From NCBI GenBank assembly GCA_900555465.1, contig USLE01000004.1, forward strand, positions 1 to 15,983: DNA of 15,983 nucleotides, read 5' to 3'. The DNA comes from an uncultured Butyricicoccus sp. (GTDB lineage: Bacteria > Bacillota > Clostridia > Oscillospirales > Butyricicoccaceae). The notes beneath the pieces were generated by a model. The model was not told where the DNA came from and made no database searches. It saw only the letters and a list, made by a program, of their open reading frames with translations. The position numbers and the translations under genes are program-made. How positions within the stretch are numbered: the stretch's first letter is position 1; every line of letters starts with the position of its first letter. Below are positions 4,714-15,983 of this stretch, one piece after another.

Positions 4714-4722
4714 CGTATGCAG

Positions 4723-4747
4723 AAGGCTCCCCAAGCGGGGAGCCTTT
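4723..4747 (+). terminator. Terminator of the DedA gene
   Basis: AAGGCTCCCC (4723-4732) pairs with GGGGAGCCTT (4737-4746) around AAGC, followed by a short TTT. A nearly identical hairpin lies at 4962-4985 on the other side of the repeat element. Confidence 0.65.
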
Positions 4748-4961
4748 GAGGCTGTCGAAAAACTATGTTTTTCGAACAGCCTCTCGATCGAAACCACGCT
4801 TTCGATCGAATCTGCCGCTGTCTGCGCGCGCCTTTCAGGCACACTTGCCAGCGGTTTGTATAAAAACCCACGCGCATGTCGCGGGTTTTTATGAAAATTG
4901 CGGTCTACCGCAATTTTCTATTTGATGTGCGCTGCGGCGCGGGAACTTTTTCGACAAGCTG
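4748..4961. mobile_element. MITE-like hairpin array with terminal inverted repeats, copy 2
   Basis: TGTCGAAAAA (4753-4762) and TTTTTCGACA (4947-4956) form 10-bp terminal inverted repeats about 204 bp apart. Between them lie consecutive hairpins. GAGGCTGT/ACAGCCTC encloses CGAAAAA/TTTTTCG (4748-4783). TCGATCGAAA/TTTCGATCGA follows (4784-4809), then CCGCTG/CAGCGG (4815-4854). ATAAAAACCC/GGGTTTTTAT has a CATG apex (4860-4892), and GAAAATTGCGG/CCGCAATTTTC encloses TCTA (4893-4918). A small GC hairpin (4928-4941) ends the row. The last three are shared in order with 14-94. No transposase is encoded, so it would be non-autonomous if mobile. The absence of an obvious short target duplication leaves mobility unproven. 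Confidence 0.7.
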
Positions 4962-4988
4962 AAGGCTCCCTGTTTGGGGAGCCTTTTT
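4962..4988 (+). terminator. Intrinsic terminator duplicating the DedA terminator
   Basis: AAGGCTCCC (4962-4970) pairs with GGGAGCCTT (4977-4985) and continues into TTTTTGTTT, the stronger T-run of the two similar hairpins. It would stop rightward transcripts and is positioned just beyond the end of the leftward gene at 4998. For leftward transcripts the tail is poor in T, so bidirectional use is uncertain. Confidence 0.65.
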
Positions 4989-8315: not shown

Positions 8316-8575
8316 GCACCTGCAAAGCAGGTAAAACGCGATGATGCCGGAGATTGCTGCCAAGGGCAGGTAACTTCGGCGGAGTAGGTCCGACAATCGG
8401 GCGGTTGAGATAACTGCTATCAGCCGGAAGGCATTGCGCCTATCTCGGCAAAAACGCAATGTTCCTGCGTAAATTCGGGACTCGCGGCGCGTGCGCCGCA
8501 AAGCCGATGGCCTGAACCACTTACGTTTCTTATTGTGACCGGATCGTTACACTACCAGTGTGCCCGGTTATTTTC
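8316..8575 (+). ncRNA. Structured leader RNA of the S10 operon, or a separate small RNA (class unknown)
   Basis: This 517-bp gap (8160-8676) holds no gene, but the part after the promoter folds well. Pairings are ACCTGC/GCAGGT (8318-8332); CCGGAG/CTTCGG (8347-8379) with CTGCC/GGCAG inside; and GGAA+CATTGCG/CGCAATG+TTCC (8426-8465). CGTAA/TTACG (8468-8525) encloses TTCGGG/CCTGAA and GCGGCG/CGCCGC, then runs into TTTCTTATT. ACCGG/CCGGT (8538-8568) encloses ACACT/AGTGT, then runs into TATTTTC. The segment 8404-8412 can pair either with 8418-8425 or with the hairpin loop 8441-8449. That switch plus two terminator-like ends suggests attenuation. It matches no riboswitch class I know. It could regulate ribosomal protein synthesis, or end at 8535 as a separate RNA. 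Confidence 0.5.
8538..8575 (+). terminator. Possible attenuator hairpin in the rpsJ leader
   Basis: ACCGG (8538-8542) pairs with CCGGT (8564-8568) and ACACT (8549-8553) with AGTGT (8557-8561), followed by TATTTTCA. The tail is T-rich but broken, so termination would be partial. It lies about 100 nt before rpsJ. Confidence 0.4.
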
Positions 8576-8676: not shown

Positions 8677-8988
8677 ATGGCAAACGCACAGAAGATCCGT
8701 ATCCGCCTGAAGGCGTACGACCACGAGCTGATCGACCAGAGCGCCGAGAAGATCATCGAGACCGCAAAGCGCAACGGCGCTAAGGTTTCCGGCCCGATCC
8801 CGCTGCCGACCGAGAAGCAGATCATCACCATCCTGCGCGCGGTTCACAAGTACAAGGACTCCCGCGAGCAGTTCGAGCGCCGCACCCACAAGCGCCTGAT
8901 CGACATCATCAACCCGAACCAGGCGACCATCGAGGCGCTGACCACCCTCGACCTGCCGGCGGGCGTCGAGTTTGAAGTTAAGCTCTAA
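8677..8988 (+). CDS. rpsJ: 30S ribosomal protein S10
   Basis: A 103-residue S10 of normal length, with the family start [12 protein letters not shown] (residues 5-16) and the core segment GPIPLPT (39-45). In the 30S head it helps bind tRNA, and in many bacteria it also joins NusB in antitermination. AGGAGG (8659-8664) precedes the ATG. It is first in the operon. Unusually, a hairpin array of about 260 bp separates it from rplC, where neighbouring genes normally sit within a few tens of bases. Confidence 0.98.
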
Positions 8989-8991
8989 AAA

Positions 8992-9258
8992 GTATAGGGG
9001 AATTCAGAATTCCCCTATATACGAAAACAGGTTCCCTTGAAACCTGTTTTCGATACCCCAACGACGCGCCCCAAGGACGCTGGGTCGGGGTATGAAATGA
9101 CCGGACAAAGCTCGGCCATTTCATGGAAACCGCATGGCGGTTTCGCGATATTCCTTATGTCAACAGGCAGACGGACTAACCCAACCGGCTGCTTGAAGCC
9201 CTGCCGCGACACGCGCGGCGAGGTCATGTTGGCGGCCAAATGCCGTCAACCAATAACC
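8992..9258 (+). repeat. Hairpin array A between rpsJ and rplC
   Basis: The rpsJ-rplC gap is filled by consecutive hairpins. These are TATAGGGGAATT/AATTCCCCTATA (8993-9019); CGAAAACAGGTT/AACCTGTTTTCG (9022-9052); ATACCCC/GGGGTAT (9053-9093); ATGAAATG/CATTTCAT (9092-9124) with CCG/CGG inside; and GAAACCGC/GCGGTTTC (9126-9144). The right part (9146-9258) is less ordered, with CCGCG-ACA-CGCG and CCAAC/GTTGG pairings. The joints CCCTATATACG (9013-9023) and CGATACCCC (9051-9059) recur exactly in array B. The loop region CGGACAAAGCTCG (9102-9114) recurs with one change. No protein is supported. It must be transcribed in the operon mRNA. Confidence 0.75.
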
Positions 9259-9277
9259 TTTAAGGAGGAAAATGCAA

Positions 9278-10619: not shown

Positions 10620-10912
10620 TGAAGTTCGCTTACGATATTATCAAGAAGCCGATCATCACCGAGCGTTCCATGATGGGCACCCAGAACAACAAGTACACCT
10701 TCGAGGTCGCTGCCGATGCCGGCAAGATCGAGATCAAGAAGGCTGTGGAAGAGATCTTCGGCGTTAAGGTCATGAAGGTCAACACCATCAAGCTGCCGGG
10801 CAAGTGGAAGCGCATGGGCGTCCACGTCGGCAAGCGCCCGGACATCAAGAAGGCGGTCGTCACCCTGACCCCGGACTCCAAGGGCATCGAGCTTTTTGAG
10901 AACATGATGTAA
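10619..10912 (+). CDS. rplW: 50S ribosomal protein L23
   Basis: A 97-residue L23, which sits at the tunnel exit and is the docking site for trigger factor and SRP. The conserved beginning (YDIIKKPIITERS, residues 5-17) and the core YTFEVAADA (27-35) are present. The start overlaps the rplD stop by one base, with GGAGGTG just upstream inside rplD, so the two are translationally coupled. The gene downstream is displaced by hairpin array B. Confidence 0.98.
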   Translation: MKFAYDIIKKPIITERSMMGTQNNKYTFEVAADAGKIEIKKAVEEIFGVKVMKVNTIKLPGKWKRMGVHVGKRPDIKKAVVTLTPDSKGIELFENMM

Positions 10913-10916
10913 AAGC

Positions 10917-11130
10917 GTATAGGAGGGACTCCGTCCCCCCTATATACGTGAAAAGTTCCGAAGAAACTTTTCACGATACCCCCCTCTCCCTCGCACGGCG
11001 AGGGAGGTTCGGGACACGTGTCCCGAAGCAGTGGAGCTTTGATCGGGCAAAGCTCGATCAAAGCAGCGCCCCTGCGGGGCGGTTGAATGACGCGAACAAG
11101 GTTCGCGTGTGTATGGGGAAGCCACCCCGA
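10917..11130 (+). repeat. Hairpin array B between rplW and rplB
   Basis: A second array in the S10 operon. Hairpins in order are TATAGGAGGGAC/GTCCCCCCTATA (10918-10944, one mismatch); CGTGAAAAGTT/AACTTTTCACG (10947-10975); CTCCCTCGC/GCGAGGGAG (10986-11006); the perfect palindrome TTCGGGACAC/GTGTCCCGAA (11008-11027); GCTTTGATCG/CGATCAAAGC (11036-11064); CGCCCC/GGGGCG (11067-11081); and ACGCGAAC/GTTCGCGT (11090-11108). The first two joints, CCCTATATACG (10938-10948) and CGATACCCC (10974-10982), equal those of array A although the stems between differ on both arms. It begins 4 bases after the rplW stop codon and is co-transcribed. Confidence 0.75.
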
Positions 11131-11160
11131 TAATAACGAATCAAGGAGTTGAAATTCCAA

Positions 11161-15823: not shown

Positions 15824-15840
15824 AACCAGCTGTGCTTTTC
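15807..15840 (+). terminator. Hairpin enclosing the rpsN stop codon
   Basis: GAAAAGCA (15807-15814) pairs with TGCTTTTC (15833-15840), and AGCTGG (15815-15820) with CCAGCT (15826-15831), leaving one bulged G. The loop TAAAA carries the TAA stop codon. The descending arm ends in TTTTCTTC, so partial termination is possible. A terminating ribosome would hold the hairpin open, so folding depends on translation. Confidence 0.45.
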
Positions 15841-15983
15841 TTCGATTGAAAGTGATGCTTTCAATCGAGAGGGCTTTGCCGCGCGTGGCGCGGACAAAGC
15901 CGGGCTGCGAAAAGTTCCGCAAAGCGAAACTTTTCTCCGCTCTTGTATAAAAAGTCAGGTACATGCCCTGACTTTTTATGAAA
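15841..15983. repeat. Hairpin-array repeat, copy 3 (right end outside window)
   Basis: Hairpins in order are TCGATTGAAAG/CTTTCAATCGA (15842-15868), a relative of the one at 4784-4809; GGCTTTG-CCGCGC/GCGCGG-CAAAGCC with one bulged A (15872-15901); GAAAAGTT/AACTTTTC (15909-15935); and the ATAAAAA/TTTTTAT module with CATG in its loop (15947-15979), here with inner arms GTCAGG/CCTGAC. The third hairpin shares GTTCC and GAAAC with arrays A and B, so this copy links the two groups. It follows rpsN and probably lies within the spc operon transcript. Confidence 0.7.

Follow-up and report, generated by a model that had tools for sequence, protein, structure and literature searches.

Array B, a series of hairpins between rplW and rplB, is best explained as a member of an old family of non-coding repeats dispersed in Oscillospirales, in which about four to six independent hairpins are combined with similar joints and loops. 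The window (the whole stretch of DNA that was analyzed, 15,983 nucleotides) carries the gene order rpsJ-rplC-rplD-rplW-rplB and onward, with names read from the translations, and array A lies between rpsJ and rplC. Both arrays are members of the dispersed family. Of the relatives compared by their L4 protein, Agathobaculum sp. Marseille-P7918 (L001) and A. massiliense (L002) are nearest to the window, with a DNA identity to the window of 89.7% (about 10.8 kb aligned) and 89.2% (about 10.7 kb aligned), respectively. L001 is without both arrays. Its alignment with the window stops at 8988 and 10912 and restarts at 9155 and 11110, and it has 1 nt of its own at the site of array A and 15 nt at that of array B. 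Since L001 aligns up to the stop codons and resumes afterwards, the arrays are extra blocks in the window, of 166 nt (A) and 197 nt (B), and the breaks delimit array B to 10913-11109. The features are as follows.

8989-9154, + strand: array A, between rpsJ and rplC; block absent in L001; z -7.86 (8989-9271); R1 match at 8992-9059 (training sequence)
8993-9019, + strand: hairpin 1 of A; from the sequence and the five-copy rpsJ/rplC alignment
9022-9052, + strand: hairpin 2 of A; from the sequence and the five-copy rpsJ/rplC alignment
9053-9093, + strand: hairpin 3 of A, ATACCCC .. GGGGTAT with an inner helix; from the fold
9092-9124, + strand: hairpin 4 of A, starting with two letters shared with hairpin 3; from the fold
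9126-9144, + strand: hairpin 5 of A; from the fold and the five-copy rpsJ/rplC alignment
10913-11109, + strand: array B, between rplW and rplB; block absent in L001; z -9.01 (10913-11148); R1 match at 10917-10982, 81.9 bits (itself a training sequence)
10918-10944, + strand: hairpin 1 of B, TATAGGAGGGAC / GTCCCCCCTATA, with one A.C; from the sequence, 97.3% of cells paired in 10 copies at rplW/rplB
10938-10948, + strand: joint 1 of B, CCCTATATACG; exact in A and B
10947-10975, + strand: hairpin 2 of B; 7 of 11 pairs changed on both sides in 10 copies
10974-10982, + strand: joint 2 of B, CGATACCCC; exact in A and B
10986-11006, + strand: hairpin 3b of B; 6 of 9 pairs changed on both sides
11008-11027, + strand: hairpin 3c of B; from the fold, helices 4 and 5 of the 10-copy alignment, 83.7% and 75.0% of cells paired
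11036-11064, + strand: hairpin 4 of B; 8 of 12 pairs changed on both sides
11067-11081, + strand: hairpin 5 of B; helix 7 of the 10-copy alignment, 3 of 6 pairs changed on both sides
11090-11108, + strand: hairpin 6 of B, missing in some relatives; helix 8, 61.2% of cells paired
11112-11133, + strand: conserved rplB-proximal hairpin, separate from array B; kept in 9 of 9 aligned relatives

An earlier note on this DNA had reported two joints common to the arrays, and CCCTATATACG (10938-10948) and CGATACCCC (10974-10982) were indeed found exactly in both. The starts close behind stop codons were likewise recovered, 4 nt after the rplW TAA (10910-10912) for array B and 3 nt after the rpsJ stop (8986-8988) for array A. 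The arms that had been quoted as complementary are so, except that GGAGGGAC/GTCCCCCC contains an internal A.C mismatch. Hairpin 3 of array A consists of GATACCC..GGGGTATC and an inner helix; in array B this place is taken by two hairpins (3b and 3c). Pairing of the hairpin-1 loop with hairpin 3, and kissing between CATG loops, were considered by eye. RNAfold gave z scores of -9.01 for the array B gap (10913-11148) and -7.86 for the array A gap (8989-9271), both stretches including conserved gene-proximal parts besides the arrays, and none of 200 shuffles was as low in either case. At up to one mismatch, CCTATATACG was found twice in the window (0.26 expected; two were reached in 5 of 200 shuffles). 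The five occurrences of CGATACCCC alone in the window at one mismatch are not unusual (3.0 expected).

Other structured stretches of the window were also observed. The small rplB-proximal hairpin (TATGGGGAAGCCACCCCGATAA; arms TATGGGGA.GCCACCCCGATAA) is kept in relatives with the array present or absent. Before rplC, positions 9155-9271 form a structured conserved stretch (..GCCCTGCCGCG..CAACCAATAACCTTTAAGGAGG) that occurs in near relatives with and without array A and had no match in the Rfam search of the window. Three more hairpin stretches (6-115, 4719-4986 and 15824-15983) contain a common 41-nt repeat, TTGTATAAAAA..CATG..TTTTTATGAAA, 76% alike, and look like parts of the array family. The stretch at 4719-4986 is flanked on both sides by similar terminator hairpins.

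The search model comprised hairpins 1 and 2 and the two joints and was made from seven copies (arrays A and B of the window, both sites of L002 and of L007, and one of L016). In these training copies 13 of 23 pairs were changed on both sides, which none of 500 shuffles reached. The model found 4 to 14 copies each in seven of nine relatives. It matched 30 of the 87 genomes of the bacterial family of A. massiliense and 23 of 394 genomes sampled from the order (Oscillospirales), nine of these 23 carriers lying outside the 87 (G139, G142, G167, G173, G217, G285, G310, G356 and G386). Copy numbers are lower bounds, as part of the candidates were scored per genome. The genome search and alignment proposed in the earlier note thus yielded many further copies of the joint-hairpin element in related genomes. 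We analyzed 160 copies, which correspond to 89 loci once syntenic copies are joined under a strict rule; L087 (a duplicate of L016; from 64) and two reverse-strand matches and one cut match (from 100) were left out. The usual copy has hairpin 1, a joint (C)CTATATACG, hairpin 2 with a GGTTCC..GAAACC cap, a joint GATACCC, hairpins 3, 4 and 5 and sometimes more. Copies contained a mean of 4.1 hairpins per 220 nt (median 4), compared to 0.34 in 462 upstream control pieces. The description as a repeated modular element with varying stems and similar joints is right. The framework had been called fixed, which is too strict: the joints are similar, with GATACCC in 127 of the 160 copies, but both exact joints occur in only 27 of them.

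The earlier note knew of no described family with this design, and we came to the same result: no Rfam 15 family fits, and no description of the array family was found in the literature searches. These searches covered article texts, so the 3,161 candidates of PMC8040213 may include the family. In the Rfam 15 search of the window, only the S10-Clostridia leader (RF03136) was above the gathering threshold, at 8333-8396, upstream of rpsJ and separate from the arrays. When 8 loci were searched at E<=1, the sole hit overlapping a copy was BASRCI414 in L081, with 27 bits compared to a gathering score of 270.

The copies lie close to stop codons. An upstream gene was called at 84 of the 89 loci and was on the same strand at 64. 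Hairpin 1 starts -6 to +14 nt from the stop codon at 52 of these 64 loci, and -6 to +7 nt from it at 47. Counted by copies, 117 of the 155 with a called upstream gene are on the same strand as this gene, and of the 37 copies (among the 160) that have called convergent genes on their two sides, 34 are no more than 12 nt from the stop. These gene calls follow a simple open-frame rule and some are wrong; at L081, the upstream frame plainly ends beside the array. Twenty of 66 upstream frames were tested with Pfam. All 20 matched at E<=1e-4, 19 of them above the family cut-off, and several reach the last position of the domain. By Pfam domain, the upstream genes include pheS, grpE, infA, prfC, ilvC and pflB; one group (L095) follows the SRP RNA and not a coding gene. 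In other lineages, copies were seen between groES and groEL, and also between purH and purD, before atpD and before dnaB (translated flanks, by eye). The groES search gave matches in 137 of 147 genomes, and the best 30 loci and L287 were examined. The gap between groES and groEL was read at 26 of these 31 loci (four unparsed, L313 left out). Four gaps contained the array, with hairpins that follow one order as judged by eye, and the other 22 were short (12-87 nt) and without array.

TAA as a target site was rejected, with adjacent stops being TAA in 26, TGA in 18 and TAG in 9 cases (n = 53, looser grouping). A role as attenuator or terminator was dropped as well. An intrinsic terminator is a hairpin with a T run, and at least five T in the next 8 nt of the sense strand were found behind hairpins 1, 2 and 3 in 0 of 83, 0 of 79 and 0 of 15 cases. 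Such runs follow hairpin 4 in 11 of 76 and hairpins 5 and higher in 12 of 69 cases.

The stems had been proposed to be exchanged as cassettes or to co-evolve. Co-evolution in place is well supported; exchange was limited, as judged by eye, to whole units that are occasionally replaced, gained or lost at some sites. Among 21 rplW/rplB gaps read, 13 had the array in the same orientation, one had it inverted (L247) and seven had none. Ten of the 13 copies (window, L002, L016, L007, L240, L244, L248, L249, L228 and L235) were aligned with the structure taken from the window copy. Changes on both sides were found in 35 of 65 pairs (shuffled mean 19.9), the cells changed on both sides numbered 82 (26.9 shuffled) and the covariation score was 0.378 (0.155 shuffled); for each measure, none of 500 shuffles was as high. 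The number of further pair types was less striking (57 compared to 50.8 shuffled, 18 of 500). In this alignment 89.2% of the cells were paired, and shifting the partner by one column reduced this to 48% or less. At rpsJ/rplC, 23 gaps were read, of which five had a full array, one a partial array and 17 none. The five copies gave 13 cells changed on both sides compared to 4.7 in shuffles, and their further pair types were not above shuffles (376 of 500).

Hairpins 1 and 2 were then compared between syntenic copies under the strict rule (35 groups, 89 loci, 141 pairs). We counted 460 double Watson-Crick changes, 244 one-sided changes and 32 changes on both sides without pairing. With one random copy pair per group, the counts were 110, 23 and 6. 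A looser grouping (33 groups, 84 loci), in which some neighbouring sites were joined, gave the same picture, with 658 double and 282 one-sided changes and 53 of 65 loci near a stop. The fraction of hairpin 2 pairs that differ was 0.30 between syntenic copies and 0.45 between others, and syntenic copies are far from identical. Because of the covariation at rplW/rplB and the double Watson-Crick changes between syntenic copies, we conclude that the arms mostly evolve together in place and that whole-unit replacement is occasional.

Individual gaps differed in further ways. At rplW/rplB, array B is lengthened in L244 and L242 by a hairpin stretch resembling the 41-nt repeat of the window in reverse, and L247 (2418-2670, genome G020) has the array in opposite orientation. 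In the rpsJ/rplC gap of L248 and L249, a different AT-rich palindromic insertion (AATTAGGAATTAG..CTAATTATCAATTACTAAT) occupies the site that array A has in other species.

Based on orientation, position and retention, an element of the mRNA is judged most likely, although we hold this reading only tentatively and somewhat below an even chance: the array would be a structured intergenic repeat of the REP/BOX kind that acts in the mRNA behind stop codons. We infer that the array is transcribed as part of the host operon. A stable hairpin 0-7 nt behind the stop would then meet the terminating ribosome and 3'-5' nucleases, and the array could tune termination, decay or coupling of the neighbouring genes, as is reported for stop-proximal E. 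coli REPs. A protein may recognise the joints and loops. In going from position to effect we rely on an analogy: REP elements no more than 15 nt from a stop codon are reported to stall ribosomes (PMC12306157). Against an action in mRNA count the frequently empty sites (7 of 21 gaps at rplW/rplB, 17 of 23 at rpsJ/rplC) and the T runs behind hairpins 4 and 5 and higher.

The kind of imperfect pairs also bears on this question. A.C on one strand is G.U on the other. In stems of at least four pairs from the loop, distinct hairpins on the sense strand contained 3587 Watson-Crick pairs, 62 A.C, 18 G.U and 18 other pairs; over all stem positions there were 101 A.C and 63 G.U. This excess counts against a fold in the mRNA, which should show the reverse. 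The earlier note had folded the sense strand; the arms are complementary as it said, but with A.C exceeding G.U among the exceptions the relevant fold may be that of the other strand. The constrained fold could instead be on the antisense strand, as an antisense structured RNA or as a single-stranded DNA mobile element with a recognised bottom strand, mostly opposite the host operon, which we consider possible but rather unlikely. A.C prevails in each of the four gene contexts (A.C:G.U 31:6, 11:6, 10:2 and 7:3), whichever way the neighbouring genes run, and in 20 loci mostly of other lineages the ratio is 24 to 1, 19 of the 24 being one hairpin-2 motif in 7 loci. The covariance-model alignment gave 59 AC and 29 GU, including one column pair not taken as true (22 C.A). 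Terminator-like hairpins (80 loci, all positions) leaned to G.U (63 G.U to 38 A.C), and other hairpins showed no lean (863 to 889). A pattern applied to the 160 copies caught 149 hairpin-2 loops, 47 of which have C(UNCG)G as their antisense reading. Folded as RNA, the antisense strand was the more stable one in 108 of 158 copies, but this measure failed to separate the strands in 188 terminator-like hairpins, of which 86 were more stable as the RNA strand. Between syntenic copies the bias is weak, with one-sided changes in hairpins 1 and 2 comprising 111 A.C, 72 G.U and 61 other, and 7 A.C and 7 G.U with one pair per group; this slightly lowered our estimate for an antisense fold. Orientation and stop-codon position suit a sense transcript, and both the A.C pairs and the internal C/A loop might represent independent motifs. 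There is fair evidence of a strand asymmetry. We also regard as unlikely the fuller proposal that this family, absent from Rfam 15 and the literature searches, has a selected fold antisense to the host operon, as RNA (UNCG-like loops, G.U wobble) or as single-stranded DNA that ends where the convergent upstream gene has its stop codon, and is kept by compensatory change at fixed ribosomal and chaperonin operon sites and found also on a phage-like contig.

A purely selfish, MITE-like repeat without host role, whose arms are matched by one-arm-templated correction or copy replacement, is a doubtful account in our view. It would fit the presence or absence of arrays between close species, the inverted array of L247, the whole-unit replacements and the syntenic one-sided changes, which are close to mutation alone. 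In some copies an extra hairpin resembling GGCTGTCGAAAAA..TTCGACAGCC comes first, next to a terminator-like hairpin. G008 has seven copies that are 88-97% alike; the extra hairpin opens six of them, and three are flanked on either side by the same local terminator hairpin, which suggests a history of transposition. A MITE has terminal inverted repeats and a target-site duplication. End repeats (6 of 7) and a doubled terminator hairpin (3 of 7) are found in G008; at the rpsJ/rplC and rplW/rplB sites neither was seen by eye, and no target-site duplication was seen at these two empty/filled sites. The 13-letter end sequence GGCTGTCGAAAAA is absent from carriers G001, G002, G003, G005 and G009. 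A Y1/IS200-like transposase (PF01797) was not found in 16 of 20 carriers, whose genomes may be incomplete; it was above the cut-off in three (G012, G013 and G026) and weak in G011. Loops and joints that are still alike at old syntenic sites, and the groES/groEL hairpin order kept in four genomes, also argue against a purely selfish repeat. An autoregulatory site or ribosomal-protein leader of the S10 operon is very improbable. The array does lie in this operon, where the S10-Clostridia leader is known, but copies also follow pheS, grpE, infA, prfC, ilvC, pflB and groES, and L001 is without both arrays. As a general account this reading is refuted by the other sites.

The element may travel, because a 20-kb phage-like contig (IMGVR_UViG_2561511082_000007; L271, L272) holds four array copies. 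Pfam identified a resolvase and a replication protein on it, and phage structural genes were recognized by eye. Searches of phage and plasmid collections with array A as query gave no match. As separate observations, one copy on this contig contains the end of the replication protein frame (PF23343), window positions 4719-4986 resemble the extra-hairpin/terminator setting of G008, and in G008 the left terminator hairpin of L106 matches the right one of L131, as if copies had recombined.

Comparison with known systems places the family near REP/BIME elements (RAYT/TnpA-REP). Both are dispersed palindromic intergenic repeats, and some REPs, situated no more than 15 nt from a stop codon, are reported to affect translation (PMC12306157). 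The array family differs as a longer composite of several unlike hairpins, with arms that co-vary at one site, and its proximity to stops is stronger (52 of 64 loci, compared to the 446 of 4,072 E. coli REPs near stop codons given in PMC12306157). Membership in REP/RAYT was dropped: these are short (20-40 bp) single palindromes with a Y1 transposase, in contrast to about four hairpins per 220 nt and carriers mostly without a PF01797 match. According to PMC3733652, REP/RAYT palindromes also have a GTAG or CGTC tag at their foot. BOX, RUP and SPRITE of Streptococcus are structured intergenic repeats thought to alter co-transcribed genes, as proposed here, and BOX resembles the arrays in that its modules (boxA, boxB and boxC) vary in number. 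They have other hosts and repeat one module, in contrast to unlike hairpins with similar joints, a comparison made by description (PMC3049150). Also by description (PMC2267715), bcr1 of the Bacillus cereus group is a dispersed element of about 150 nt with a predicted common structure, like the array family, and has other hosts. Intrastrand triplex repeats are treated in PMC4666352. The S10-Clostridia leader is an RNA element of the same operon and differs from the arrays in lying upstream of rpsJ as a separate match.

Dispersed repeats are usually viewed as decaying copies. The array copies keep their structure at single sites of core operons via compensatory change, and the other strand is hinted at by the imperfect pairs. 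Close species offer natural pairs with and without an array at the same site, and it becomes directly testable whether palindromic repeats between genes are parasites or belong to the 3' ends of genes, which is an old question.
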